From: Sulfuricurvum kujiense DSM 16994
GTDB lineage: Bacteria; Campylobacterota; Campylobacteria; Campylobacterales; Sulfurimonadaceae
NCBI RefSeq assembly: GCF_000183725.1
Contig: NC_014762.1
Location: 496,001 to 560,000, forward strand
DNA length: 64,000 nt
Direction: 5' to 3'
Each line of letters opens with the position of its first letter. Position 1 is the first letter of the stretch. The notes below the pieces were generated by a model. The model did no database searches. It was not told the origin of the DNA and saw nothing but the letters and a program-made list of their open reading frames with translations. Shown piece by piece: positions 5,913 through 22,052 of this stretch. A program made the translations under genes and the position numbers.

Positions 5913-8899
5913 TGTCACAAGCACGATGGTATGAATATAGTAAAAACAATCCGAAAGCTCTCCCCGAGATTCTTCTGTGCGAGGATGCGAAAGAGGCGTC
6001 GGAACTGAGCGACGTTTCCACTTTTTTAGAAATCCCCCACATCGTATTGCCCGATTTTCGTGCGACCTATATGGACGATCTCAGACCGTTTGGCGAAGAG
6101 CTATTTGCCCTTTTCGCCGCACTTCGAACCTATTATACAGCCTCAAAAAAACCGCTGATTATTTCCCCGCTCAAAACACTCCTTTTTCCGATGCCGCATG
6201 AGAGTTTGCTTCAAAGCGAGACGATCGAGTTCGCCTCCCGCATCGATCTGGGCAGCTTTAAACAAAAACTGCTCCATTGGGGGTACACCTTTGTTGATAT
6301 GGTGGAGATGGAGGGGGAGGTATCGCACCGCGGCGACATCCTCGACATCTACGTCCCGAACCAAAGCAACCCCTATCGTATCAGCCTCTTTGACGACGAG
6401 GTCGAAGAGATCAAAGCGTTTGATGTCGAAACCCAGCGCACCGACAAAGAGGAACTGGCCTCTATCGAAGTGACCAGCGCTTTTTTCTCCCTCGATGAGC
6501 AGCAGCACAAAGCGTTCGAAAAAGCGATAGCCGCCGCACAAAGCGACAGCTTCGTCAAAGACATTGCCTCGCTCGGGTTTTGGGTCTTGAATGAGCACGG
6601 AGTCGATCTGTGCGAGGGGAAAAAAGTCTCGCGTATCCGTGAGATGAAAAGTGTCCTCGACGAAGCGTACGGACTCAATCAACCCGTCTTGCCGCGAACG
6701 AGACTCGAAGCAGACATCCTCCCCGAATCCGAAAAGTACACTCCATTGGGGGGAGGGAATTTAGAAACCCTTCGAAGCGTCCATAAAAACAAAAAATTTA
6801 CCCTGATCGCCGCCAGCGATACGCAGCTCAAAGCGGCGGGGATTTTTGATCTAAAAGGAATCTTGGTTAAAACATCCGGGATCGTTCTGAATCTGATCGG
6901 TCCCGATGAGATCATCCTTTCTCTTAACCGTCATGAGAAAAAGCGCCGTCGCCGCCGTACCTCCATTCTCCTCGATGATTTGAAAGTAGGGGACTACGTC
7001 GTCCACGAAGAGTACGGGGTCGGGATATTCGTCGGGATCGAACAGGCGGAGATTCTCGGCGGGGTGAAAGACCTCGTCGTCATCAAATACATGGGGGATG
7101 ACAAGCTTCTCCTCCCCGTCGAAAACCTTGATACGATTGACCGCTATATCGCCTCAGGGAGCCTCCCCGTCCTTGATCGTCTGGGCAAGGGAAGTTTCGG
7201 CAAACTCAAAGAGTCGGTCAAAGCACGGTTGTTCGAGATTGCCTCCGAGATCGTCGGGATTGCGGCGAGCCGTGCGCTGATCAAAGCGTCGGTGATCAGT
7301 GTCGATGCGGGTGAGCTTCGAAGATTCCAAGATGCTGCCGGATTTGACTACACTCCGGATCAATCAAGTGCGATCAGCTCGATAGTCCGTGATCTCTCCT
7401 CCGGTCATATCATGGATCGTTTGCTCAGTGGAGATGTCGGTTTCGGGAAAACGGAGGTGGCGATGAACGCTATTTTCGCCGCCGCAAAAGGGGGATACCA
7501 ATCGCTCCTCGTCGTTCCGACCACCTTGCTCAGTTCCCAGCATTTCCAATCGCTTAAAACCCGTCTCGCACCATTCGGTCTTCGGGTCGCTAAGCTCGAC
7601 CGCTTCGTCAGCACCAAAGAGAAAAACGCAACCCTTCGGGCGCTTGAAGCGGGGGAACTCGACTGTGTCGTCGGAACCCACGCCCTGTTCGGGGTGAGCT
7701 GTAAGAAGCTCGGAATCGTCATTATCGATGAAGAGCACAAATTCGGGGTAAAACAAAAAGAGAAACTCAAATCGCTCTATGAAAACGTCCACCTTCTCAG
7801 CATGAGCGCGACCCCGATCCCGCGCAGTCTTAATCAGGCGCTCAGTTCGATTAAGACGATGTCCGAGCTTCTCACCCCTCCGAGCGAGCGCTTAGGGGTA
7901 CGGACATTTGTGAAAAACTACGACGAGAAACTGATCAAAGAGGTTATCTTGCGCGAGCTTCGCCGCGGCGGTCAGGTGTTTTACGTCCACAACTCTATCG
8001 ATTCGATGATCATCAAATCGGGTGAGCTGAAAGCGATCCTCCCCGATCTGCGTATACTCATCCTCCACTCTCAGATCAGTGCAAATCAGACCGAGGAGGA
8101 ACTGGCGAAATTTGCGAATCGCGAATACGATGTCCTTCTCGCAACCTCCATCATCGAATCGGGGATTCATATGCCGACGGTTAACACAATGATTATCGAC
8201 GGAGCGGACCGTTTCGGGATGGCCGATCTGCATCAGCTGCGCGGCCGTGTCGGACGGGGCCATATCGAGGGGTATGCCTATTTTATTGTCGATGACAAAG
8301 AGAACCTCACCGAAGAGGCGAAAAAACGTCTTGTGGCACTCGAATCGAACTCCTTTTTGGGAAGCGGATCGATGTTGGCGTACCACGACCTCGAAATCCG
8401 CGGCGGGGGGAATCTCGTCGGGGATGCTCAGAGCGGTCACATCAAAAATATCGGGTATGCCCTTTACTTGCGGATGTTGGAAGATGCGATCAAGCTCCTT
8501 ACCAACCAAACGACGGCGGTGCGGGCAAAAGTCGATATCAAGCTCACCGTCAGCGCCTTTATCAGCGATGAGATCGTTACCGAAGACCGCCTTCGACTTG
8601 AACTCTACCGCCGCCTGAGCCAGTGCGAAAGTCCGAGCGAGATATACGAGATCGAAGAAGAGGTCGGGGATCGGTTCGGCAAACCCGATACTCCTACGAA
8701 ACAGTTTTTCGAGATCATGGTGATCAAACTGCTCTGTATCGAGAAGAAGATCAAAATGGTGAGCAACTACAACCAAAACATCACCATAGAGTACCAAAGT
8801 GGCATCAAAGAGACGCTTCAGAGCAAAAGCAAAGACGATGATGATCTTATCGGTACGGTATTGCACTATCTTCGCACGACGAAACAAAAAGGGCTGTAA
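5912..8899 (+). CDS. mfd: Transcription-repair coupling factor Mfd
   Basis: ATP-driven translocase that removes RNA polymerase stalled at DNA lesions and recruits UvrA. In order: a UvrB-like N-terminal region (about 1-280), the RNA-polymerase-interacting CarD-like domain (about 345-410, with DYVVHEEYGVGIF), and an SF2 helicase core with Walker A GDVGFGKT at 507-514, DEEH at 606-609 and motif VI RGRVGRG near 779-785. A TRCF C-terminal domain follows. The 995-residue length is shorter than E. coli Mfd (about 1150), as is common in Campylobacterota. The ATG overlaps the folC stop by one base, and its stop overlaps the rlmC start by one base. Confidence 0.97.
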   Translation: MSQARWYEYSKNNPKALPEILLCEDAKEASELSDVSTFLEIPHIVLPDFRATYMDDLRPFGEELFALFAALRTYYTASKKPLIISPLKTLLFPMPHESLLQSETIEFASRIDLGSFKQKLLHWGYTFVDMVEMEGEVSHRGDILDIYVPNQSNPYRISLFDDEVEEIKAFDVETQRTDKEELASIEVTSAFFSLDEQQHKAFEKAIAAAQSDSFVKDIASLGFWVLNEHGVDLCEGKKVSRIREMKSVLDEAYGLNQPVLPRTRLEADILPESEKYTPLGGGNLETLRSVHKNKKFTLIAASDTQLKAAGIFDLKGILVKTSGIVLNLIGPDEIILSLNRHEKKRRRRRTSILLDDLKVGDYVVHEEYGVGIFVGIEQAEILGGVKDLVVIKYMGDDKLLLPVENLDTIDRYIASGSLPVLDRLGKGSFGKLKESVKARLFEIASEIVGIAASRALIKASVISVDAGELRRFQDAAGFDYTPDQSSAISSIVRDLSSGHIMDRLLSGDVGFGKTEVAMNAIFAAAKGGYQSLLVVPTTLLSSQHFQSLKTRLAPFGLRVAKLDRFVSTKEKNATLRALEAGELDCVVGTHALFGVSCKKLGIVIIDEEHKFGVKQKEKLKSLYENVHLLSMSATPIPRSLNQALSSIKTMSELLTPPSERLGVRTFVKNYDEKLIKEVILRELRRGGQVFYVHNSIDSMIIKSGELKAILPDLRILILHSQISANQTEEELAKFANREYDVLLATSIIESGIHMPTVNTMIIDGADRFGMADLHQLRGRVGRGHIEGYAYFIVDDKENLTEEAKKRLVALESNSFLGSGSMLAYHDLEIRGGGNLVGDAQSGHIKNIGYALYLRMLEDAIKLLTNQTTAVRAKVDIKLTVSAFISDEIVTEDRLRLELYRRLSQCESPSEIYEIEEEVGDRFGKPDTPTKQFFEIMVIKLLCIEKKIKMVSNYNQNITIEYQSGIKETLQSKSKDDDDLIGTVLHYLRTTKQKGL

Positions 8900-10017
8900 T
8901 GAGTTTTTGTTCCTATTTCGATACCCATCTTTGCCACTCATGCCGATGGATCGATTACCATTATGCCGAACAGCTGAAACTCAAAAGTGACCAGCTGCAT
9001 GCCCTGCTGAACAAATATCAGCCCAACGGGTGGCAAAAGCCCGTTACCTCGCAGCTCAAAGGATTCCGTAACAAGGCCAAGATGGTAGCGACCCCTACGC
9101 CGGAGGGGATTGTGCTTGGACTTTCCGAAGAGGTGAGTCTGATCGACTGCCCTTTATATGATCTTAGTATGCAAAAAGTCTTGCATAGCGTTCAAGAGTG
9201 GCTTCGGGAATTGGGGATCAAAGGGTATGACATCAAACTCCGAAAAGGGGAACTCAAATACGTCCTCCTCACCCGCAGCAAATCAAACGGGACGATGATG
9301 CTCCGTTTTGTCCTCCGCTCTCATGGTATTATTGCGCGGCTGGAGGGGGGACTGGAAGAATTGATCAAACGCTCACCGGAGCTGAAAGTGGTTACGGTCA
9401 ATATCCAGCCGGTCCATATGGCGATCTTGGAAGGGGACGAAGAGATATTTTTGAGCGAACAGCGCCGTCTCGAAGAGCGGTTTAACGGTATTCCTCTTTA
9501 TATCCGCCCCAAAAGTTTTTTTCAAACCAATCCCGACGTCGCCGAAAAGCTCTATCGCACGGCGAGCGAGTGGATCGATGAGATCAAACCGTCGCGGTTA
9601 TGGGATCTGTTTTGCGGCGTCGGAGGGTTTGCTCTGCACTGTTCTGCACCCGAGCGTGAAATCATAGGGATCGAGATCGAGCCCGAAGCGATAGAGTGCG
9701 CCCGCGATTCGGCCGCGCAGCTGGAGATGACGAATCTCCGTTTTGAGTCGCTGGATGCGGCAAGCTTCGGGGCAAATTCGGGAGAGAAGCCCGATGCCGT
9801 GATTGTTAATCCGCCGCGGCGGGGGTTGGGTGAACAGTTGTGCAAATGGCTCGAAAAAGTCTCGGCCGAACATCTGATTTATTCAAGCTGCAATGCGGTG
9901 ACGCTGGCAAAAGATTTGGAACGTTTAGGCTCGTATGAAATCCAAAAAGTACAGCTTTTTGATATGTTTCCCCATACGGAACATTATGAAGTTCTGGTAT
10001 TTTTAAAAAAACGGTAA
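8899..10017 (+). CDS. rlmC: 23S rRNA (uracil-747 C5)-methyltransferase RlmC
   Basis: SAM-dependent enzyme that methylates a 23S rRNA uracil; the paralogue RlmD or TrmA is the main alternative. The N terminus carries the [4Fe-4S] cysteines C4, C12, C15 and C84 in the RlmC arrangement. GFRNKAKMV at 55-63, NIQPVHMAILEG and SFFQTNPDVAEKLY are highly similar to E. coli RlmC (RumB). The catalytic nucleophile is C331 in SSCNAV, after NPPRRG. The SAM-binding DLFCGVGGFALHC loop lies near 235-247. There is no TRAM domain, which argues for RlmC over RlmD. The ATG overlaps the mfd stop, and it is the last gene of this plus-strand run. Confidence 0.93.
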   Translation: MSFCSYFDTHLCHSCRWIDYHYAEQLKLKSDQLHALLNKYQPNGWQKPVTSQLKGFRNKAKMVATPTPEGIVLGLSEEVSLIDCPLYDLSMQKVLHSVQEWLRELGIKGYDIKLRKGELKYVLLTRSKSNGTMMLRFVLRSHGIIARLEGGLEELIKRSPELKVVTVNIQPVHMAILEGDEEIFLSEQRRLEERFNGIPLYIRPKSFFQTNPDVAEKLYRTASEWIDEIKPSRLWDLFCGVGGFALHCSAPEREIIGIEIEPEAIECARDSAAQLEMTNLRFESLDAASFGANSGEKPDAVIVNPPRRGLGEQLCKWLEKVSAEHLIYSSCNAVTLAKDLERLGSYEIQKVQLFDMFPHTEHYEVLVFLKKR

Positions 10018-10219: not shown

Positions 10220-11392
10220 TTAGTGTGAACTTTTATTCCACGAAACTTTAAACTCGCTCCCTTCTGCGGTTTCTGAACGGACGGCAATTTTTAACTGGTA
10301 TTTTTGCGTGATCATCTGAACGATATTGAGTCCGATACCGAAACCTCCGTTGGCTTCATCAAAACGGGTATAGCGTTGAAAAATGTGCTCAATGACCTCT
10401 TTGGAGATACCGATTCCGGTATCGCGAATACTCAGAGATTGTGGTTCCAGCGTGATGTATATCTCGCCGGAGGGTTTATTGTACTTGATCGCATTTGAGA
10501 GGAGATTGTCGATCAGACGAATCATATGTTCCCTGTCAATTCGAAATGCCGCGGCTTTCAGGTCGGTTCGGATCGTGATTTTTTTTGCCTCGGCGATCGG
10601 ATTGAAATACTCGATACGCTCTTGAAGAAGCGCTTTGATATCGAGGTCGATGTTATGCTGTTTGCTCTGATCATGCATCAGCAAAAAGGTGAGGTCGTTG
10701 TAGAGATTGGAGATCGTCTTTGATGCGAGGGAAATTCTCTCAACGTGTTTGCGTTGTTTGGGGAGAAGCTCTTCTTTATGGAGTTGCTCAACAGACATCG
10801 TGATGACGGAGAGGGGAGTATTGAGTTCATGAGTGGTGTCTCTGATAAAGCGATCGAGTTTATGGATGGTATCACGAACGGGATGCAGGAAAAGTTTCCC
10901 CAGAACATAGATGACAACCGATAGAAAGAGGATCGAAAAAATCAAAAAAAGATAGATGCTTTTTCGGGTTTGTTCGAGCTGCGGCTCGATAGAGTCAGCC
11001 CGGACAAGAAGATAACGGACTTTTTTAAGATGTTGAAGTTCAATGGTATCGGTAAAAAAGTAGTGATGATCGTACTTATAAAAACCGAGGTGAAACGGAA
11101 ATACTACCTCGGGCGCCGATGTGTAGAGAATCTTTTTTTTGTGACTTAAAAGTACGACTTCAAAGCGCGGATCGCGGCTGAGATGTTTTTGGAGTTCATC
11201 CATATTTTTCGCATCGAAAATATGATCCTGAAGTGTTCCGGCATAGTATGACATGGCGTCGCGTCGGAGTTCGATATACATATTTCGCTGGTAATAATAA
11301 TACATCGTTGATATAATTAATAGAAAAATGGTGTTCAATACGACAAAAAGCGATACGAAGCGGATCAGCGATTTTTTTTCAGGCGAGTGCAA
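10220..11392 (-). CDS. Membrane sensor histidine kinase (pga-linked)
   Basis: Sensor kinase of a two-component pair. Transmembrane helices are at about residues 10-33 and 145-168, enclosing a periplasmic sensor of about 110 residues with no recognised fold. The dimerisation domain holds the phospho-accepting H188 in RDTTHELNTPLS. The ATPase domain has the N-box DNLLSNAIKYN, G1 DTGIG and G2 GFGIGLNIV. There is no clear HAMP domain. Its start overlaps the upstream response regulator gene by 14 bases, so the pair is coupled. The pair lies downstream of pgaBCD and the metallopeptidase on the same strand, so it may be cotranscribed with them and may report on the cell envelope. That role is inference. 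Confidence 0.92.
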   Translation of the reverse strand: MHSPEKKSLIRFVSLFVVLNTIFLLIISTMYYYYQRNMYIELRRDAMSYYAGTLQDHIFDAKNMDELQKHLSRDPRFEVVLLSHKKKILYTSAPEVVFPFHLGFYKYDHHYFFTDTIELQHLKKVRYLLVRADSIEPQLEQTRKSIYLFLIFSILFLSVVIYVLGKLFLHPVRDTIHKLDRFIRDTTHELNTPLSVITMSVEQLHKEELLPKQRKHVERISLASKTISNLYNDLTFLLMHDQSKQHNIDLDIKALLQERIEYFNPIAEAKKITIRTDLKAAAFRIDREHMIRLIDNLLSNAIKYNKPSGEIYITLEPQSLSIRDTGIGISKEVIEHIFQRYTRFDEANGGFGIGLNIVQMITQKYQLKIAVRSETAEGSEFKVSWNKSSH

Positions 11393-12071
11393 TCTGGTAC
11401 CCTTGTCCCCGTATATTTATAATTCTCTCTTTCCCCAGATGTTTGCGAAGATTTTTAATATGGGTTCGCAGACTCTCTTCGCTTCCGTCTTCGTCAAAAT
11501 CCCACGCCGATTCGATCAGAACTTTGGAACTGACGATTGAGCCCGGATGACAGAGGAGGATTTTTAAAATCTTCGCCTCTTTGCGTGGAAGGGTGATCTC
11601 GTCTTCATCGTTCGTAAGCCGTCCCAGCTTCGGATCAAAAACGATGGTTTCACTGATTGCTATCGGAGTATCTTCGCCGAGGATCGATGAGCGTTTGATG
11701 AGGGCTCGTATCCGCAGTTCGAGCTCTTTGAGTTCGAACGGTTTTTTGAGATAATCGTCGCACCCGGCATCGTATGCGTTTGATAGATCATCGATGGTGT
11801 TGAGGGAGGTTATGAAGATAGCAGGGGCTTTTCTCTCTTTATCCCGAAGTTCTCGCAGGACATCAAATCCGTTGAGTAGGGGGACTTTAACGTCGAATAA
11901 AAACAGATCGAACGCGATTTCGTATCCAAAATCCAGAGCGCTCTCCCCGTTATACGCGCATGTGACGGAATATCCCTGATCGCTTAGATACTCTTCGATG
12001 ATCGATGAGAGGGTAAAGTCGTCTTCCAGCAATAAAATCCGAAGCGCTGTAGAGGAGATCGGTTTTGGCAT
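11379..12071 (-). CDS. OmpR-family response regulator (pga-linked)
   Basis: Receiver domain (about residues 10-122) followed by a winged-helix DNA-binding domain (about 140-229). The phosphorylation site is D60 in LFDVKVP, with acidic residues E16-D18, a Thr/Ser switch near ITSL and the conserved lysine K110 in LKKPF. The C-terminal domain has the Trans_reg_C signature with the ending IRGQGYQI. It is cognate to the overlapping kinase gene. A 43-base gap separates it from the metallopeptidase gene upstream; that gap contains an AT-rich TATTATAG stretch, so an internal promoter is possible. Confidence 0.94.
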   Translation of the reverse strand: MPKPISSTALRILLLEDDFTLSSIIEEYLSDQGYSVTCAYNGESALDFGYEIAFDLFLFDVKVPLLNGFDVLRELRDKERKAPAIFITSLNTIDDLSNAYDAGCDDYLKKPFELKELELRIRALIKRSSILGEDTPIAISETIVFDPKLGRLTNDEDEITLPRKEAKILKILLCHPGSIVSSKVLIESAWDFDEDGSEESLRTHIKNLRKHLGKERIINIRGQGYQIALA

Positions 12072-12114
12072 GCTTTCTCTTTTGGATGTTTGGATGTATT
12101 ATAGAGCAGAAGAA

Positions 12115-12618
12115 TTAATAGAGTTTGCCGAAGTGATCAAGATAGGTCAGGTAGAGTCTTAATTCGAATTCGAGCTGATGATAGTGCGGCTCGATATGGG
12201 TACATAGGGAGTAAAATGCTTTATTGTGCTCTTTCTCTTTCAGATGGGCGAGTTCATGGGTAACGATCATCCGAAGAAACGGCTCGGGAACTTTCTTGAA
12301 CAGATGGGAAATTCGAATCTCGTTTTTTGCTTTGAGCTTTCCCCCCTGTACCCGTGAGACGAACGTATGGGTACCCAGTGCGGAGTGCAAATCGCGTATT
12401 TTGGTATCAAACAGCACTTTGGAGATGGGTGAGGAGCTTCGTAAATGGGTGTTTTTGATCTCCATCACATAGTCAAAGAGACTTTTGTCGCTGACGTAGG
12501 GATGAGGTTCGGGATATTTGTGCAAAAGCCGATCTCCGAGCGTATCGGTATCGATCAGCTCTTGTACCTGAGAGCGTATCTCCCGTGTGTAGTGGGCTAA
12601 ATATTTAAGTGTTTGCAT
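12115..12618 (-). CDS. YgjP-type zinc metallopeptidase (DUF45/M48-like)
   Basis: Putative zinc-dependent peptidase of the YgjP/WLM group. The motif H121-E122-L-A-H125 with a third ligand H131 (HELAHLKEKEHNKAF) is the zinc site of this family. The 167-residue protein lacks a signal peptide or membrane helix, so it is probably cytoplasmic. The substrate is unknown. It starts 12 bases after pgaD on the same strand, so it is likely cotranscribed with the exopolysaccharide genes, an unusual partner for them. Confidence is high for family membership and low for role. Confidence 0.85.
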   Translation of the reverse strand: MQTLKYLAHYTREIRSQVQELIDTDTLGDRLLHKYPEPHPYVSDKSLFDYVMEIKNTHLRSSSPISKVLFDTKIRDLHSALGTHTFVSRVQGGKLKAKNEIRISHLFKKVPEPFLRMIVTHELAHLKEKEHNKAFYSLCTHIEPHYHQLEFELRLYLTYLDHFGKLY

Positions 12619-12630
12619 ACGCTGAAAGCT

Positions 12631-13071
12631 TTAGCTCTTGTTTTCAATTTGGTCATTCAAGTGGATTATATGCCCGCGATCATCATGGTAAACCGTAACC
12701 AATTGACTATCAATACACTTCTGCAGTTCTGCATTGTCGATACGAAAATAATTGGAATAATCGTACGAAGTATAGAGTAGATGCTCGCTTGGTGCTCTGT
12801 GCCTATTGAGCCGTGATAAGACAAACAAGATGACAGGGGTCAGGATGAGCATATACAGAGCATTTTCAAACGTCACGCTGCTGACATTTTCGAAAATCCA
12901 ATCGGATATCGTATCGGGTGCTTCTTTGAGGGTAATGATTTTATACAATACGATCAGTAAAGGTTTCCATAAATAGATAAAGCCCAGCCACAGAGCGATG
13001 GTCATCGCATCCCAAAACCATCTTTTTCGTCTCGGCATTTCATGGCGTTTGTTAATAATAAGTGTTTCCAT
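12631..13071 (-). CDS. pgaD: PgaD-like subunit of poly-N-acetylglucosamine synthase
   Basis: Small inner-membrane protein that, in E. coli, pairs with the glycosyltransferase PgaC to form the c-di-GMP-activated polymer synthase. The 146-residue protein starts METLIINKRH, close in pattern to the E. coli PgaD start, then has two membrane helices (about residues 20-45 and 68-90) and a short cytoplasmic tail. PgaD sequences diverge quickly, so the call leans on topology and on its place six bases after pgaC. If it works as in E. coli, the c-di-GMP proteins elsewhere in this window could influence it. Confidence 0.8.
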   Translation of the reverse strand: METLIINKRHEMPRRKRWFWDAMTIALWLGFIYLWKPLLIVLYKIITLKEAPDTISDWIFENVSSVTFENALYMLILTPVILFVLSRLNRHRAPSEHLLYTSYDYSNYFRIDNAELQKCIDSQLVTVYHDDRGHIIHLNDQIENKS

Positions 13072-13077
13072 ACGATA

Positions 13078-14373
13078 TTACCCTTTCTTCTTCGGCAACT
13101 TTTGATGGACACCGCGGTCAGGACTAACCCATCGTGCACGCCCTTTTTTACCGAACAGTACTTTTGGAAACGCCGTTACGGCCGTGAACAAATTGAGCAG
13201 CCAGAAAGCGAACGGATACCAGATCATCCAGTAATAATTTTTCCCCATCCCTTCGTCATAATGCCCATCCAGCCATCGGCTGATCGCAAACTGTATCAAA
13301 CACGCACCGATGAGAATCACGCTGCTTTGATCGGGTAAAATAGGCGAACTCGACGGCATCAAATACGAAATGTGGACAAAGAGGCTTAAAAACCAGACCA
13401 AAAAGACCAGAACCATCGTGTAGGCCCAGATCGTACTGAGCATAAGCTCCGTCATAAGTCCCCAAAGATGGGTTTGCTTGTGGGAAAACAAAACCTTGAA
13501 GTTCTTCAGCATAACCTGAACGCCCCCCATAGCCCAGCGCAAGCGCTGTTTCCATAGCCCTCTTAAGGTCTCCGGCATCAAAATCCAGACCAGTGCCCGA
13601 GGCTCAAAACGGACGTCCCAGCCGTTTCGCTGCAGCTTCCAGGTAACATCGATATCTTCGGTGAGCATATCGGGACTCCAATACCCGATCTCATGCACCG
13701 CTGCTTTCCGAAAGCCGGTAATAACTCCCGAGACGGTAAATAACCGGCCGAAACTGCGCTGTGCCCGCTTGATCATCCCGACGATGGAAGAGAACTCGCC
13801 GACTTGAATCTTGCCCAACAAACTGGTGCGGTTGCGTATTCTCGGATTTCCCGTTACGGCGGCGACTTCGGGATAGCGGATAAAATGTTTGACCATCCAG
13901 TGGACACAATGTTTATCGATCAACGCATCGCCGTCGATACATATCAGATATTCATGTTTTGCCAACAGCGCTCCGGCTTGCAGCCCCAGTGCTTTTCCCT
14001 GATTTTCGGCCAGATTGACCACTTTCAGTTTCGGATTCTCTTTGGCCAGAGCGACCAATATATCCAGCGTATTATCCTTGCTTCCGTCGTTGATGGCGAT
14101 CACCTCGAACTCCGGATAATCGACATTCAAAGCATACGAGATGGTTTCGACGGCATTTTCCCCTTCATTATAGCACGGGATCAAAATACTCACCCCCGGC
14201 CAGCGTTCGTTGGCTCTAAGGGGAGGAATTTTGTATTTAAGATACGGTTTTTCATTTTTAAAATAGAAAAAGATTGCCCCGATTATCCACAAACTGGACA
14301 TAAACAGCGGATAATAGAACACATAGCCCAGCATTATGTGCCATAGCGAATGCCAAAATATATCGAATGTCAT
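13078..14373 (-). CDS. pgaC: Poly-beta-1,6-N-acetylglucosamine synthase PgaC (family 2 glycosyltransferase)
   Basis: Processive inner-membrane glycosyltransferase that polymerises N-acetylglucosamine from UDP-GlcNAc. An N-terminal helix (about 15-38) is followed by the GT2 domain with the substrate aspartates D96 (INDGS) and the D147/D149 pair (CIDGDA), the TED catalytic base at 238-240 and QRLRW at 276-280. Three or four membrane helices follow at the C terminus (about 310-420). The 431-residue length fits PgaC/IcaA. It begins 12 bases after the pgaB stop and is followed closely by pgaD. Confidence 0.94.
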   Translation of the reverse strand: MTFDIFWHSLWHIMLGYVFYYPLFMSSLWIIGAIFFYFKNEKPYLKYKIPPLRANERWPGVSILIPCYNEGENAVETISYALNVDYPEFEVIAINDGSKDNTLDILVALAKENPKLKVVNLAENQGKALGLQAGALLAKHEYLICIDGDALIDKHCVHWMVKHFIRYPEVAAVTGNPRIRNRTSLLGKIQVGEFSSIVGMIKRAQRSFGRLFTVSGVITGFRKAAVHEIGYWSPDMLTEDIDVTWKLQRNGWDVRFEPRALVWILMPETLRGLWKQRLRWAMGGVQVMLKNFKVLFSHKQTHLWGLMTELMLSTIWAYTMVLVFLVWFLSLFVHISYLMPSSSPILPDQSSVILIGACLIQFAISRWLDGHYDEGMGKNYYWMIWYPFAFWLLNLFTAVTAFPKVLFGKKGRARWVSPDRGVHQKLPKKKG

Positions 14374-14385
14374 TCTGAATCCTTC

Positions 14386-16404
14386 TTATTTGTTCGGCAT
14401 GGTATTGTTTAGGGTCGTTTGATGCATATAGGTCGGTTTTTTCGCGAACGCTTGTCTCATCGTATCGGCATCGGGAATATTTTTAAATACGCTGTCGGGA
14501 TAATAGGCCAGATGATGTACTCCCAATCCGTACAGATGTTGTATTGTATCATTCAATTCCTCAGAAGAAATCGGTGCATCGTTTTTTCTCCAATTTACCG
14601 TTTGAAGCTCCATCACGGTACGCTCTACTCCGCACTCTTCTCTTTTTACCCGTTCGACGATTTTTTCGTAAAAGGCTTTTGGATCAGGTGCCTGTTCCAT
14701 ATACGGCATCGCCATAATAGCGGTGTAGTCGTATTTGTCGATTGACTCGGCCAGCCCTTGGGCATACCACTCTTCGGCGTATTCGTTCAGGGCGACTTGA
14801 GCATAGAGATTGCGTGCCGTTTTAAGTCCGGGGTGCTCTTCCCGTACGATTTGTGCCAATTTCATCGCAAACTGATCCAAAAAGTCCGTTTTGAGATTTG
14901 TCCACTTCTCGAATTGGCCGCTATCCGATCTGATCTGCGTCACGCTTTGTGCCAGCCCCCATTTTTTATACTGTCTGCGTGCAAACGGACTGTCGTCTTC
15001 ATAGTCGGAGAGGGTGACATCGTCATGAAACAATATTCCGTCGATTCGGGGCGATTTTGCCAAGTCTTCGTAAATCTCTTGGATCACTTTTTGTGCTTTG
15101 GGTGAAAACGGGGAGAGTCTCGGATACCCCATATTCAGATGGGTCGGATCGACCTGCAGCGTTACGACGGTATCGTTGGCCGCCGGATTGTTTTTCGGCA
15201 GCTGCCACGCCATCATCGGCATCCATGCATAGATGCGTTTGACCTGCGTACGGGTTGCAATCTGCCATGCTACGCGGTTAAACAGATCCGAGCGCATCGG
15301 TACGTTTCGGTTCGGGAAATAGACATAGTCTGCCGCACCGTTGGCATCGGGATCGGCAAATGCCTGCAGGTAGACCGTGTTGACCCCCAGCTTCTTGATC
15401 CGATCCAGCAAATCCCCCAGATTACGTTCCGTCTGTGCAGGATCGGGATCGTACATATAGTCCAGATCGATATGGGCCGCTTTGGTCACTCTGTCGTTAT
15501 CGGTGCGATTTGCATTGCGTGACCACATGTCTTGTTCCAACATTTTTAACGTCATGTTTTTTTCGATCAATATCCGTCGAAGTCCCCACAGCGGGGTGAT
15601 GGCGGTATTGCTTCCATCATCGAGTGTCAGCCCGATCGGCATGCCCAGGCGCTCTACGATCTGCCGAACCTCTTTGTTGTAGTAGCCGTACGGCCAAACC
15701 ATGATGCGGGGCTTTTGTCCCGTATAGTTCTCTAAAAACGTGTTATTTGTCGCCAAGTCGTTGTATATGCGCTCTTTATAGCTTTTTTCGTCTTCATACC
15801 GTTGTTTGTCACTCAGCCATTGGCGTGTGATGACGGCGGGCTGCATGTTCCCTTGCGGATTTCCGACGATCCCTTTGTGCAAAGAGTAGGTATGGCTGGC
15901 GATCTCCACCAATCCGCTTTGTACCATCTCTTTTATCTCTTTTTGGCTCAGGAACTTGCCGCGGGCTATTTTGTGCCCGTCGAAATCAACGCTCTCTTTG
16001 GCCTCCATCCAACTGCCGACCAATGCGATGACCACCGGAATCTTATGTTTTTTAATGACGGGGAAAGCGTTGGTATAGACCGACTGGTACCCGTCGTCAA
16101 ACGTCATCAAAACCGCTTTTTTCGGTAAAGGTTTTTTCCCTTTCCGGTACTTTAAAATATCATCGATACTGATAAAGCGGTACCCGCTTTTCATCAGCCA
16201 ATTCACCTGCTCTTCAAAATGTTCCGGCGTGACCGCATAGCTTGAATCGAGGGTTTCGCTTTTTTCGGAAATTTCGTGATAGCTCAGGACGGTAAATTCG
16301 TTCGGGTTCTGATCGCGACTGCAGATATTCGGGATCTCATTTGCCATTAGGCAGCTGCCAATACTTAAGAATGCAAAAATAAATTTGACGATTGGTTTAC
16401 GCAT
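14386..16404 (-). CDS. pgaB: Poly-N-acetylglucosamine deacetylase PgaB
   Basis: Periplasmic, probably lipid-anchored protein that removes some acetyl groups from poly-N-acetylglucosamine before export. Signal region 1-21 has a plausible lipobox ending at C18. The carbohydrate esterase 4 domain (about 35-300) shows SYHE, the metal and base aspartates D103 and D104 in TFDDGY, and ASHTYS for the metal histidine. The second domain (about 315-660) matches the PgaB glycoside-hydrolase-like half, with HIDLDYMYDPDPAQ and DGILFHDDVTLSDYEDD. Full length (672 residues) like E. coli PgaB. First gene of the minus-strand run; a TATAAT-type -10 lies at 16440-16445. Confidence 0.93.
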   Translation of the reverse strand: MRKPIVKFIFAFLSIGSCLMANEIPNICSRDQNPNEFTVLSYHEISEKSETLDSSYAVTPEHFEEQVNWLMKSGYRFISIDDILKYRKGKKPLPKKAVLMTFDDGYQSVYTNAFPVIKKHKIPVVIALVGSWMEAKESVDFDGHKIARGKFLSQKEIKEMVQSGLVEIASHTYSLHKGIVGNPQGNMQPAVITRQWLSDKQRYEDEKSYKERIYNDLATNNTFLENYTGQKPRIMVWPYGYYNKEVRQIVERLGMPIGLTLDDGSNTAITPLWGLRRILIEKNMTLKMLEQDMWSRNANRTDNDRVTKAAHIDLDYMYDPDPAQTERNLGDLLDRIKKLGVNTVYLQAFADPDANGAADYVYFPNRNVPMRSDLFNRVAWQIATRTQVKRIYAWMPMMAWQLPKNNPAANDTVVTLQVDPTHLNMGYPRLSPFSPKAQKVIQEIYEDLAKSPRIDGILFHDDVTLSDYEDDSPFARRQYKKWGLAQSVTQIRSDSGQFEKWTNLKTDFLDQFAMKLAQIVREEHPGLKTARNLYAQVALNEYAEEWYAQGLAESIDKYDYTAIMAMPYMEQAPDPKAFYEKIVERVKREECGVERTVMELQTVNWRKNDAPISSEELNDTIQHLYGLGVHHLAYYPDSVFKNIPDADTMRQAFAKKPTYMHQTTLNNTMPNK

Positions 16405-16445: not shown

Positions 16446-16622
16446 CAGCAGAACCCCTTTATAGCTGCTATCGGTACACAGTAAATTTGTATGTTTTTGC
16501 TAACTTACGGGAGCTTTTGCTATCTTTATAGTATAGTTTCATTAAATTATAGATCAACGGAACAAAACCTCGTTCGGATGCGTTTGCCTCTGCCGAGTCA
16601 GAACATAATGCAAAGGTTCGGG

Positions 16623-17204
16623 ATGGAACACCAGAAGATTGATGAACTTGTAGCTCGTATCAAAGTACTCGAAGCGGAACTGGAGAGTGAACTGCAGCAG
16701 GAGTATGAGCGCTTTACCTGCGAGATCACGAAAAAACGCGATGAGATTCTGGCCTCTTATCGAAAAGAGCGGCAGGGTGCATGGCGCTATCTCTTTACCG
16801 CTCCGATTCTCAATCTCCTCAGTGCCCCCGTCATCTGGTCGGTTCTGTTTCCGGCGTTGATTCTGGACGGTTTCGTCACGATCTATCAGTGGATCTGCTT
16901 TCCGATCTACAAAATCTCGAAAGTCAAACGGCAGGATTACATCATCATCGACCGTCACCGTCTTGCTTATCTCAATAGCATCGAAAAACTCAACTGCCTC
17001 TATTGCAGCTATTTCAACGGCCTCATGGGATACATCACCGAGGTCGCCGGCCGAACTGAGCAGTACTGGTGCCCGATACGCCACGCCACACGGGTTAAAT
17101 CGATGCACGGCAATTATAAAAAATTCTTCGATTACGGCGACAGCGAGAACTTCCGTCAAAGACTCGCTGAGCTTCGAGAGGATCTAAGAGAGGAGAAAGA
17201 GTGA
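16623..17204 (+). CDS. Conserved hypothetical membrane-associated protein upstream of ymdB
   Basis: The frame is open from 16491, but the start at 16623 (MEHQKIDEL) is preferred because AAAGG lies about seven bases upstream and the earlier codons look like promoter DNA; ATG 16608 is the alternative. From this start the product has 193 residues: a coiled coil (about 1-45), a hydrophobic segment (about 55-95), and a C-terminal part with CLYC and, 27 residues on, a third cysteine in the block GRTEQYWCPIRHA. I have the impression that this block is conserved widely in proteobacteria; its function is not known. The cysteines could bind metal. The last four bases overlap the ymdB start. Confidence 0.7.
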   Translation: MEHQKIDELVARIKVLEAELESELQQEYERFTCEITKKRDEILASYRKERQGAWRYLFTAPILNLLSAPVIWSVLFPALILDGFVTIYQWICFPIYKISKVKRQDYIIIDRHRLAYLNSIEKLNCLYCSYFNGLMGYITEVAGRTEQYWCPIRHATRVKSMHGNYKKFFDYGDSENFRQRLAELREDLREEKE

Positions 17205-18013: not shown

Positions 18014-18664
18014 GTGGAACTGCAGGACTCATGGGAGCTTTTCAGCGCACTTGAAAAACTGAAGCTTTTAGAGAACTCTCCGCCGTTGTGGTGGCCTGCC
18101 TATGGAACCTTTGAGGTCGTCGTCGGGGCGGTGCTGACTCAAAACACCCAATGGGAGCGGGTTCAAATCTCTCTGGACAATCTCCGAAATTCTGAGATTT
18201 TAGCCCCCGATCTCCTCGCACAAACACATCCCGAAACCCTTATGGAGCTGATCCGTCCGAGCGGGCTGTTCAAAGCGAAAGCGTCCAATCTCATCCGTCT
18301 TTCACGCAATATGATGGAGGAGTTCGGCGATTTCGAGACCTTTGCGCTGAGTACCGACCGCAACTGGCTGTTAAGCCAAAAAGGGGTCGGTCCCGAGACG
18401 GCGGATTCGATCCTCTGCTACGCCTGCGCCCGTCCTTCTATGGTCGTCGATGCCTACACCGCGCGGCTGTTAAACGCGTTCGGATATGAGTTCGAGAGTT
18501 ATGATGAGCTGCAGGAGTGGTGTGAAACGGGGGTGAGAGGATATTTCGACACCGTTCAGCTTCCCGCCGCTTTTGCGCGGTTTCATGGGATGATTGTGGA
18601 GTATGTGAAGAGCAATAGTAAGGGGAAAGCGGTAAATATCGAGCGGATCAGCTCGACCATTTAA
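18014..18664 (+). CDS. magIII: MagIII-type 3-methyladenine DNA glycosylase (HhH-GPD)
   Basis: Base-excision repair enzyme of the endonuclease III superfamily that removes 3-methyladenine. The helix-hairpin-helix loop QKGVGPETADSIL (about residues 120-132) and the catalytic aspartate in MVVDAYTARLL are present, and the overall pattern (WWPAYGTFEVVVGAVLTQNT, ILCYACA) follows Helicobacter MagIII closely. There is no C-terminal four-cysteine iron-sulfur loop, as expected for MagIII and unlike Nth. GTG start at 18014, four bases after ymdB. The last 26 codons lie inside a 95-bp sequence that recurs at 19199-19293, and the gene's end overlaps the convergent brnA by 17 bases. Confidence 0.9.
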   Translation: MELQDSWELFSALEKLKLLENSPPLWWPAYGTFEVVVGAVLTQNTQWERVQISLDNLRNSEILAPDLLAQTHPETLMELIRPSGLFKAKASNLIRLSRNMMEEFGDFETFALSTDRNWLLSQKGVGPETADSILCYACARPSMVVDAYTARLLNAFGYEFESYDELQEWCETGVRGYFDTVQLPAAFARFHGMIVEYVKSNSKGKAVNIERISSTI

Positions 18665-18679
18665 CCTGCGGTTCGACGT
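18585..18679. repeat. 95-bp direct repeat, copy 1 (magIII 3' end plus brnA 3' end)
   Basis: Matches 19199-19293 in the same orientation at 94 of 95 positions; the only difference is C at 18613 versus G at 19227. This copy is functional sequence: it holds the last codons of magIII and, on the other strand, the last ten codons of brnA. Confidence 0.97.
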
Positions 18680-18860
18680 GGCGGATGGCACAGTCAGTGA
18701 GATATGAATTCATCAGCGTTTGATACGGCAATCCCGTTTTGAGGGCGAGCTGTTTGAAATACTCGATGGTATCGACTTCGATATTGAGCGAAATCTGTTT
18801 TTTTGCCGCTTTGGCATAAGGGTTTTGGACGGATTGTGAAAAATCGTATTCTTCTCTCAT
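18648..18860 (-). CDS. brnA: BrnA-type antitoxin
   Basis: DNA-binding antitoxin that neutralises BrnT and represses the operon. The start is ATG 18860 (MREEYDFSQSVQNPY), because AAGGAG lies seven bases upstream and the ATGA overlap with the brnT stop is typical of such pairs; a longer in-frame extension to 18950 would lie wholly inside brnT. The 70-residue product has a ribbon-helix-helix-like core (QISLNIEVDTIEYFKQLALKTG then LPYQTLMNSYL), as in BrnA/CopG proteins. Its 3' end overlaps magIII and lies within the 95-bp repeat. Confidence 0.88.
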   Translation of the reverse strand: MREEYDFSQSVQNPYAKAAKKQISLNIEVDTIEYFKQLALKTGLPYQTLMNSYLTDCAIRHVEPQVKWSS

Positions 18861-19150
18861 GGTAATAGCTCCTTGTATTGGCGTTCTTCGTTTTTGGTTG
18901 ATCGTCGGGCGGATATGATCCGTATTATTCTCTCTTGATCTCTGTAGCAATGGACTACCGCTAATATTTTTAACGTATAGCTCATCCCCAACAAGATAAA
19001 TCGTTCTTCTTGTTCCGAATGGTCGGGATCGGGAATCATACGGGCAAAATCATCATCAAATACCGTTTTGGCTTCTTCAAACGATACGCCGTGTTTGGTG
19101 ATATTTGACGAAGCTTTTGTATCATCCCATTCAAATTTTAACGATTTCAT
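18857..19150 (-). CDS. brnT: BrnT-type toxin (ribonuclease)
   Basis: Type II toxin of the RelE-like fold that halts translation by cutting RNA. The family signature is plain: FEWDDTKASSNITKHGVSFEEA at the N terminus, then VFDDDFAR, RFILLGMS and RIISARRSTKNEER with the catalytic-type arginines near the end. The 97-residue length is normal. It precedes its antitoxin with a four-base overlap. No ribosome site is visible before ATG 19150, and the promoter's -10 ends six bases upstream, so the mRNA is probably leaderless. Confidence 0.92.
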   Translation of the reverse strand: MKSLKFEWDDTKASSNITKHGVSFEEAKTVFDDDFARMIPDPDHSEQEERFILLGMSYTLKILAVVHCYRDQERIIRIISARRSTKNEERQYKELLP

Positions 19151-19340: not shown

Positions 19341-20225
19341 CTATTTTGTTTCATTTAATATGTATGTTCCATAATACAGCTCAAGATTTGCTCCATTAAG
19401 ATTTGCCCCTTCAATATTTGTTTTATTTAAATTACTGCTTGCAAGATTTGCTCCTTGCAGGTTAGCATTAGAGAGATTTGCTCCTTCAAGATTTGCTCTT
19501 TCAAGATTTGCTCCTTCAAAATTTGTTTCTTGCAGGTTAGCATTAGAGAGATTGGCATTTTGAAGGTTTGCATTTTGAAGGTTTGCTTTTTGAAGAGATG
19601 CTTCTTCAAGATTAGAATCTGCTAAATTTGCTTTATATAAATTTGCTTTATATAAATTTGCTCTATATAAATTTGCATGTTGAAGAAGAGAATGCGCCAT
19701 TGCTGAATCTGTTAATATTGAATTATTAAGGTCAGCACGATAAAAATCTTGTACATGTAATATAGCTGATGGTAAATGTATATAATTGAGACAGTCTAAA
19801 GCTAAAACATTATCTTCACCTATTCTTTGCTTTCTAAGTGAGTGTAAAAAGTCACCAAACTCTTGTCCTTGACAAGAAATAAGTGATTGTTGTTTTGTGG
19901 TGTTGGCACAAGCATTTAATGCTGCTAGTAAACTTTCTTTACTATTGCGAACAGAAGCAACAATTTTTTTATAAGAAATTGCTGATTCAGTAAGAGCAGA
20001 AAGCGGAAAATCATTTTGTATAGCATGTGATAGCAGTTTTATTAATGATTGCTGCCATTTTAGAGCTTTTTCATAATCAGCTAGCGATAGTTCATTGACT
20101 ATAAAATCAAAAACATACTGATCCATCCGTGATGGTCCAGTCCAAGCATACCAATTACTCAATGCTAATGTTTCATCCCAACCTGTACCATATTCTTCTT
20201 CATGCCTTGCCATTTCATCATGCAT
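19341..20225 (-). CDS. Pentapeptide-repeat protein (C-terminal part of the split NACHT-like gene)
   Basis: Frame from ATG 20225 to the stop at 19341-19343, 294 residues. Residues 1-150 are helical with no recognised motif. From about residue 165 onward the sequence is a run of pentapeptides of the A(N/D)LXX type, for example QHANLYRANLYKANL and LEGANLSNANLQGANL, which fold as a right-handed four-sided helix. No ribosome site is seen before ATG 20225, and the frame continues upstream to a TAA at 20361, so this is most likely the detached tail of a larger protein and not an independent gene. The repetitive DNA could also permit copy-number change. Confidence 0.6.
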   Translation of the reverse strand: MHDEMARHEEEYGTGWDETLALSNWYAWTGPSRMDQYVFDFIVNELSLADYEKALKWQQSLIKLLSHAIQNDFPLSALTESAISYKKIVASVRNSKESLLAALNACANTTKQQSLISCQGQEFGDFLHSLRKQRIGEDNVLALDCLNYIHLPSAILHVQDFYRADLNNSILTDSAMAHSLLQHANLYRANLYKANLYKANLADSNLEEASLQKANLQNANLQNANLSNANLQETNFEGANLERANLEGANLSNANLQGANLASSNLNKTNIEGANLNGANLELYYGTYILNETK

Positions 20226-20360
20226 TAATCGAATACTTCTAACAAGTCTTTTGGCGATTAAATATTCACCGAAACTTTTATGAGTGAATTCGAATGTTTG
20301 ATCAAAAGCATCACCACTATGACGAAAATAAAATGCTGTTAGTAGTTTTACAATACCTTT

Positions 20361-22052
20361 TTATGCCCCATCGGCAAAGCTTTTTAAAACGGCAGGATTA
20401 CATTTGTTTTCTATTTGCTGGATAGAGGCTTTTCGTCCGTCACTATGCCATACAGCTAATGAAATATCTTCAAGTGTTTGTTCAAATTGTTTTTTTGAAA
20501 TTCCTTCAATTGATTTATGTTTTTGTTCATATCCTCGCTCATAGACCCCTTCAAGAAGGTCAGCATAAACGGTATTTAAATTTTGTTCTTTAGTGAAATC
20601 GATTTTGCCTCGTTGATAACTTAAAGCTACTAAATAATTTAATAATGGTTGTGAAGTAACATCACGTAGCTTGGATTCATTTAATGCAGTAGGCAATCCA
20701 GTGACTTTTTGTCCGTTAAATTGTTGATAGCGATTCCACCATTCTACTCTTTGATCCAATGAGAGTAATTGATCTGAAGTGTATTCTTTAAATTCATTTT
20801 TTTCTATGGTATATGGCAATAAGTAAATAATTTGCCCTTCTTTTCTATAATCATCCATTATGGCTTGTATCACAATTTCACGACCACCGATCAATGCAAG
20901 TAATTTAGCTGTTTTATGTCCATTGTTATGTTCACTAATTTTTTCTTTGACATGCCGTATGAAATTGATAGCAGTTTCAGCTCCTACTTTGCCTTGCATT
21001 GCTAATTCATCAAGTCCATCAAAAATCAATAGTGTTGATTGAATATTGTCAATTTTTAGGGGATTTATTGATAATTTTGCATGCTTTTCAATGAATTCAT
21101 CAATAGCGTATTCAAAGTCATCTTTGACTTTTAGCCTATGTAGTGGGATTATAATGGTGTTTATTTCACGGTTTGATGCTAGCTCAGCAGCATACATCCG
21201 GGCAAAAGATGATTTTCCACTTCCAGGCCCACCACTGATAATTCGTATAGCATCTTTTGAGTCTTTTTTTCTAAGCCAAATAGATAATTCTTCTTTTAAC
21301 CAAAAAGCTTTTCGTAGTTGCTTCCTTAAAGAACCTTTTTCGATATAAGTTATTGTGTAAGCGCGAGGCCAAATAAACATATCTTTTAAACTGAACGCTT
21401 CATGGAACATACCATGTACTACATCAAGCTGTAAAGCTGAACAATAGCGTTCCCACTCACTTAATTGTGTCGTTGCTTGAGTAAAAGGTGAATTAATTTG
21501 AGTTTGCAAACATTTATAATTTTCATGATTACTAATCCACTCTTGATTGAGTGAATATACAAAATACATGGGAAAACGAGATTTGATCGCATGAGCTTTA
21601 TAATCAGGAATATTGAGATCAATAAGCCAACTTTTTAAGGCTTCTGTGAATGGAATAATGAAATTTAGTGATGCTGGATTTGAAAAGAAATCTTCATCAA
21701 GTTCAATTTCAAATGAATCGAGAGAATCACTTATTCTTTTGCAAAAATCTTCAATATCTGATTTACACGTTGAAAACTCATTAAAAATATCTGTATGTTC
21801 AGTTGACAGAGTGAAAATTGCATTGGTAAGAGACCTCGTGATTAATAACCATCCTCTTTCTTCACAAGTGTCTTGCAATCCCATTGCTGATAGAGAATCG
21901 AGTGCATCTTTGGCAGCATCATCCCATTTTGCATTATAGGCATCGACAGCAGATTTTGTTAGTGAAATAAATAAATTTTTGAACTCAAATTTCAATGGTT
22001 TATTTAAAAAATGTACTTGCTTTTTTAATTTGAATTTAGGAGTATTTAGCAT
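20361..22052 (-). CDS. NACHT-like P-loop NTPase (N-terminal part of the split gene)
   Basis: 563 residues from ATG 22052. Residues 1-265 are a helical region of unknown fold containing EAFSLKDMFIWPRAY just before the NTPase, a position where related STAND proteins have a similar FSLKD block. The NTPase has Walker A GGPGSGKSSF at 274-283 and Walker B LLIFDGLDEL at 341-350, the acidic pattern of the NACHT/STAND class, followed by sensor-like SQPLLNYLVALSY. The product ends at FADGA before a premature TAA. Probably a nucleotide-controlled switch, classically in antiphage defence; the N-terminal effector is not recognisable to me. Confidence 0.7.
   Translation of the reverse strand: MLNTPKFKLKKQVHFLNKPLKFEFKNLFISLTKSAVDAYNAKWDDAAKDALDSLSAMGLQDTCEERGWLLITRSLTNAIFTLSTEHTDIFNEFSTCKSDIEDFCKRISDSLDSFEIELDEDFFSNPASLNFIIPFTEALKSWLIDLNIPDYKAHAIKSRFPMYFVYSLNQEWISNHENYKCLQTQINSPFTQATTQLSEWERYCSALQLDVVHGMFHEAFSLKDMFIWPRAYTITYIEKGSLRKQLRKAFWLKEELSIWLRKKDSKDAIRIISGGPGSGKSSFARMYAAELASNREINTIIIPLHRLKVKDDFEYAIDEFIEKHAKLSINPLKIDNIQSTLLIFDGLDELAMQGKVGAETAINFIRHVKEKISEHNNGHKTAKLLALIGGREIVIQAIMDDYRKEGQIIYLLPYTIEKNEFKEYTSDQLLSLDQRVEWWNRYQQFNGQKVTGLPTALNESKLRDVTSQPLLNYLVALSYQRGKIDFTKEQNLNTVYADLLEGVYERGYEQKHKSIEGISKKQFEQTLEDISLAVWHSDGRKASIQQIENKCNPAVLKSFADGA

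Follow-up and report, generated by a model that had tools for sequence, protein, structure and literature searches.

A PgaA-less pgaBCD cassette in Sulfuricurvum kujiense belongs to a lineage that spans several phyla

Secretion of poly-beta-1,6-N-acetylglucosamine (PNAG), a biofilm sugar, by Gram-negative bacteria is regarded as requiring the outer-membrane porin PgaA. We analysed a pga locus that encodes no such porin, located in a 64,000-nucleotide stretch of the genome of the sulfur-oxidising bacterium Sulfuricurvum kujiense DSM 16994 (NC_014762.1, positions 496,001 to 560,000; hereafter the window, to which coordinates without a locus prefix refer). The first-pass annotation had described six genes on the same strand at short gaps, and all of them were indeed found at the positions it gave, with their families confirmed by Pfam and NCBIfam:

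14386..16404, minus strand: pgaB, a periplasmic two-domain enzyme (TIGR03938, 828 bits against a cut-off of 322; PF01522 and PF14883), with a CE4 deacetylase domain at residues ~91-256 and a GH153 hydrolase domain (PF14883) at residues 311-635
13078..14373, minus strand: pgaC, a GT2-family poly-beta-1,6-N-acetylglucosamine synthase (TIGR03937, 594 bits against a cut-off of 422)
12631..13071, minus strand: pgaD, a small membrane partner of PgaC (PF13994; TIGR03940, 122 bits against a cut-off of 31)
12115..12618, minus strand: a ygjP-like zinc peptidase gene (PF01863, HELAH motif; no apparent signal peptide)
11379..12071, minus strand: an OmpR-family response regulator gene (PF00072 and PF00486)
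10220..11392, minus strand: a membrane histidine kinase gene (HisKA PF00512 and HATPase PF02518)

By these coordinates, the gaps were 12 nucleotides (nt) between pgaB and pgaC, 6 nt between pgaC and pgaD, 12 nt between pgaD and ygjP, and 43 nt between ygjP and the regulator gene, which overlaps the kinase gene by 14 nt. PgaB, PgaC and PgaD were judged against the curated NCBIfam cut-offs for PNAG equivalogs; the locus thus carries the PgaC, the PgaD and the two-domain PgaB of the PgaABCD system, but not its PgaA porin. The genome encodes no second PgaB of this type, its other deacetylase genes being ordinary ones of 247-283 amino acids (aa), and the nearest named relatives of the window PgaB come from Sulfuricurvum genomes.

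We aligned the window PgaB with the E. coli PgaB (4f9d) and the Bordetella GH domain (6au1). As a result, the CE4 motifs were found to be conserved, and residues D313, D315, D351, H460, D461 and E570 were aligned with D326, D328, D364, H473, D474 and E585 of the Bordetella enzyme, which are important by mutagenesis (PMC5933820). Judged from these CE4 motifs and GH153 residues, PgaB looks active. In addition, the DGD, TED and QRLRW motifs of PgaC were invariant in comparison with the E. coli and Acinetobacter enzymes. The lipobox cysteine is not conserved in the clade of the window PgaB, the window copy having a borderline IGSC, and most clade members have a signal peptide of another type than that of lipoproteins; PgaB was accordingly not recognised as the outer-membrane lipoprotein of the Pga system, a feature that is not diagnostic. 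The idea that a lost lipid anchor accompanies the loss of PgaA was rejected, since the PgaA-linked PgaBs of the order Campylobacterales also lack the lipobox and the C21S variant of E. coli PgaB still binds PgaA (PMC9384988).

We then searched the whole window genome (100% complete, 5 contigs) for PgaA with the full-length model TIGR03939 and the barrel model PF21197, both of which find the E. coli PgaA control. In eight relatives within the order, TIGR03939 also detected PgaA, with scores of 505-625 bits. In the window genome, TIGR03939 gave only two matches, both below the cut-off (20.8-23.5 bits) and both in tetratricopeptide repeat (TPR) proteins without a PgaA barrel, while PF21197 gave no match at all; a BcsC-type barrel was likewise absent from the genome. 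The absence of pgaA from the locus, as first annotated, therefore extends to the whole genome. No pgaA was found beside another pga cluster, and the earlier suspicion that the system differs from textbook Pga was borne out.

Candidates for a substitute exporter were also considered. TPR proteins with weak similarity to PgaA were rejected in this role: a TPR protein of 508-537 aa occurred in only three of the 41 genus genomes, its match in the window genome, again in a TPR protein, reached only 21.7 bits, and no such protein was seen near any deacetylase gene of the window genome in the map of open reading frames. A shared extra gene replacing pgaA beside pgaBCD was also rejected, because none was general among 37 loci of the same clade. 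Two relatives encode large proteins next to pga, of 2020 and 1925 aa; these were an Ig-like/RTX and a kinase/PAS protein, not porins.

Within the order, 15 of 299 genomes carried a full PgaB above the cut-off. Eight of these had pgaA beside pgaB, and seven, including the window genome, had no PgaA above the cut-off anywhere. The PgaBs of the other six PgaA-less genomes were 68-76% identical to that of the window, while the PgaA-linked ones were only 31-47% identical. In the genus, an uninterrupted PgaB of the window type was found in 26 of 41 genomes, with pieces in three more, and the other 25 intact copies shared 70-81% identity with it. For a wider comparison, the 80 nearest relatives of the window PgaB were taken from a scan of species genomes and a local PgaA model was applied, and none of the 80 had an adjacent pgaA by this model. 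Furthermore, a convincing PgaA barrel was detected in none of the 36 genomes holding same-clade loci; weak partial hits appeared in two of them (G343 and G346), in G346 in a different protein type.

In a quick PgaB tree, 78 sequences without an adjacent pgaA formed one group with a Shimodaira-Hasegawa-like approximate likelihood-ratio support (SH-aLRT) of 100, apart from ten with an adjacent pgaA, the PgaA-linked rows having long branches and the Bordetella and Burkholderia PgaBs not being placed. The group spans Campylobacterota, contigs named Gallionellaceae, Chromobacteriaceae, Lysobacter and Anaeromyxobacter, and the second PgaB of Acinetobacter. In a plasmid collection, the Acinetobacter PgaB1 was 56% identical to the window PgaB, and the Burkholderia and enterobacterial PgaBs 38-40%. 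Apart from pgaB, pgaC and pgaD, no gene was general within 9 kb of pgaB in the 37 same-clade loci; rlmC and ygjP came next (in 11), and the flanks of pgaBCD varied from locus to locus. By gene order, the lack of an adjacent pgaA and the grouping of its PgaB, the window locus belongs to a pgaBCD-only lineage of the A. baumannii PgaB1 type. The missing PgaA is a systematic feature of a widespread type and not a local accident.

Two Moraxellaceae loci among the nearest relatives had a pgaC-pgaA pair nearby, with pgaA ~3.7 kb from pgaB. In L152 (Alkanindiges) and L154 (another Moraxellaceae), pgaBCD faces a convergent pgaC-pgaA pair and no second pgaB was detected, which looks as though a single PgaB acts for both pga sets. 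Separately, four contigs named Gallionellaceae or Pseudomonadota (L123, L125, L127 and L130; GC content 0.48-0.57) carry a pgaB of the Campylobacterota clade with 67-71% identity. In L123 the GC content of pgaB is 0.46, lower than the 0.53-0.54 of its flanks, which suggests that pgaB of this kind moved between phyla by transfer.

Taken together, we consider it fairly probable that pgaBCD is a complete three-gene cassette for PNAG synthesis and processing, forming a distinct PgaA-less lineage whose chains leave the cell by an unlinked, non-PgaA route. From the protein families, PgaC and PgaD would polymerise beta-1,6-linked N-acetylglucosamine and move the polymer into the periplasm, where PgaB would partly deacetylate and clip it. 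The resulting chains or oligomers would then exit by an outer-membrane route encoded elsewhere, the weakest step of this scheme, and shorter products might pass through general porins. A member of this lineage, PgaB1 of A. baumannii, has PNAG deacetylase activity, and less biofilm forms when it is lost (PMC9935895).

Several points weigh against this proposal. No gene for the presumed exit route was found in the genome, and the models used might miss a porin that has diverged strongly. The PNAG polymer in this organism is itself a prediction from the genes. In A. baumannii the cassette coexists with the PgaA of another operon, so that export there may be canonical. Moreover, sequences entered the tree because they resembled the clade of the window PgaB, so that PgaA-linked members of the lineage may be missing from it.

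The main rival is that the polymer is not exported at all: PNAG, deacetylated in part, or the oligomers clipped from it would stay in the periplasm and serve the envelope in roles such as osmotic balance, cation binding or permeability. The lack of both PgaA and a BcsC-type barrel fits this possibility, and the conserved hydrolase residues mean that the chains could stay short; periplasmic build-up of PNAG on loss of PgaB has also been supposed for A. baumannii by the authors of that study (PMC9935895). On the other hand, AbPgaB1, which belongs to this lineage, has a part in surface biofilm (PMC9935895), but in a species that also has PgaA. We regard retention in the periplasm as possible but distinctly the less probable reading, and favour, by inference, exit by an unlinked route.

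We also examined whether the peptidase and the two-component pair belong to the system, as the first-pass annotation had proposed in making them candidate regulators of PNAG synthesis or release. The genes flanking the insertion site in the window are as follows:

8899..10017, plus strand: rlmC (TIGR02085), the fixed flank of the insertion site, which most genomes of the genus have next to ygjP or to the insertion
16491..17204, plus strand: a gene for a 237-aa protein of unassigned family (no Pfam or NCBIfam match), the other flank of the site

About half of the genus genomes conserve the latter gene ahead of ymdB. A strong ygjP orthologue was found in 34-36 of the 41 genus genomes and sits between rlmC and ymdB in nearly all of them, most having no pga at the site. 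Of 36 genomes, 12 carry pgaBCD at the rlmC-ymdB site, divided evenly (six and six) between the two sides of ygjP, and only five have the regulator-kinase pair beside ygjP. Two genomes (G315 and G323) have ygjP and the pair without pga at the site, their pga genes being elsewhere in the genome, and co-presence of the pair and pga at the site was not significant (3/12 against 2/24, Fisher p = 0.31). Among the 37 same-clade pga loci, ygjP was not seen within 9 kb in 26, some of whose contigs are short. Thus the linkage of ygjP and the two-component genes to pgaBCD is not conserved in relatives, either in the genus or in the clade. The kinases beside canonical pgaABCD (family f18) were rejected as orthologues of the window pair, being closer to another kinase of the window genome (39-42% identity) than to the window kinase (36-38%).

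Since ygjP resides at the site with or without pga, the regulator-kinase pair is rare there, and the flanks differ across the clade, we conclude that ygjP, the response regulator and the kinase are neighbours at a shared insertion site between rlmC and ymdB, not parts of the Pga system. Because the gaps are short, these three genes may possibly lie on the same transcript as pgaBCD in this strain; promoter-like and terminator-like sites at the locus occurred at chance level in sequence scans, so the limits of an operon cannot be read from the sequence.

In this light it appears unlikely that all six genes form a single operon whose peptidase and two-component pair control how PNAG is made or released. 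The appeal of this reading lies in the common strand and the short gaps, in one genome with the same order pgaBCD-ygjP-regulator-kinase (G324) and another with ygjP-regulator-kinase-pgaBCD (G170), and, as a weak hint from a pga-rich sample, in the finding that all ten genomes with a seen kinase orthologue also have pgaBCD. These observations are outweighed by the occupation of the site by ygjP in nearly all genus genomes, mostly without pga, by G315 and G323 together with the non-significant co-presence, and by the nearer relationship of the kinases of canonical loci to a different kinase of the window genome. Finally, loss of pgaA with retention of other pga genes is known in some enterobacterial pathogens (PMC7112194), but a decayed pgaABCD operon whose remaining genes are on their way out is very improbable here, given the intact pgaB frames in 26 genus genomes at the identities given above, the PgaA-less state common to the whole lineage across phyla and the conserved catalytic residues.

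Other polysaccharide gene sets were observed in relatives. In Sulfurimonadaceae, L269:7479-10517 and L270:8541-11633 encode a fusion of TPR and polysaccharide deacetylase parts (1012-1030 aa), whose C-terminus in L269 is weakly PgaA-barrel-like, next to a GT2-type synthase gene and a gene resembling those for sugar-nucleotide dehydrogenases; these sets apparently represent a different exopolysaccharide system. Gene sets in three of the 41 Sulfuricurvum genomes (L268:7796-13810, L266 and L267) combine a GT2 synthase with two TPR proteins, one of 773-790 aa with the TPR at its N-terminus and a separate, weakly PgaA-like one of 508-525 aa. Elsewhere in the window, we noted by eye two small overlapping genes resembling a BrnT/BrnA toxin-antitoxin pair (18648-19150, minus strand), and a gene for a NACHT-like NTPase followed, on the same strand, by one for a pentapeptide-repeat protein (19341-22052).

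Because PgaA-less genomes of this lineage retain a synthase, a deacetylase and a hydrolase that all look active, how, and whether, the polymer leaves the cell becomes directly testable. More broadly, these loci may point to a widespread Gram-negative PNAG pathway without PgaA, with either an unknown channel or a periplasmic envelope polymer, in which case PgaA would not be a defining part; this broader view is tentative, and we hold it with somewhat less than even confidence. In our literature search, the pgaBCD-only cassette was not found to be recognised as a cross-phylum lineage in genomes without any PgaA, and a search for Sulfuricurvum together with pgaB returned no paper.

Compared with known systems, the window locus resembles E. 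coli pgaABCD in its PgaB, PgaC and PgaD families, domain order and catalytic residues, but differs in having no PgaA and in the missing conserved lipobox cysteine (C21 in E. coli) in its PgaB clade. It shares the lack of a detectable pgaA with the PgaA-less, duplicated-pgaC clusters of Thauera sp. MZ1T, whereas clusters of that type are without pgaD and the PgaB hydrolase domain, both of which the window locus keeps (PMC7112194). BcsC-less cellulose operons of alphaproteobacteria offer a parallel, combining a synthase with periplasmic parts, with the known outer-membrane porin undetected (PMC7112194), although the polymer and the gene families are different. The closest counterpart is the second pga locus of A. 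baumannii, pgaBCD A1S_0938-0940, which encodes AbPgaB1 (PMC9935895, PMC10117892), a partial duplication of pga in this species having been noted before (PMC7112194). It matches the window locus in gene content and order, pgaA being missing from both; its PgaB and PgaC are ~56% and 62% identical to those of the window, and other Acinetobacter copies join the window group in the PgaB tree. Unlike the window genome, A. baumannii also has pgaABCD elsewhere, and hence a PgaA, while in A. venetianus the cassette is present with no PgaA above the cut-off. The second pga locus of Acinetobacter, itself poorly understood, thus falls within this lineage.

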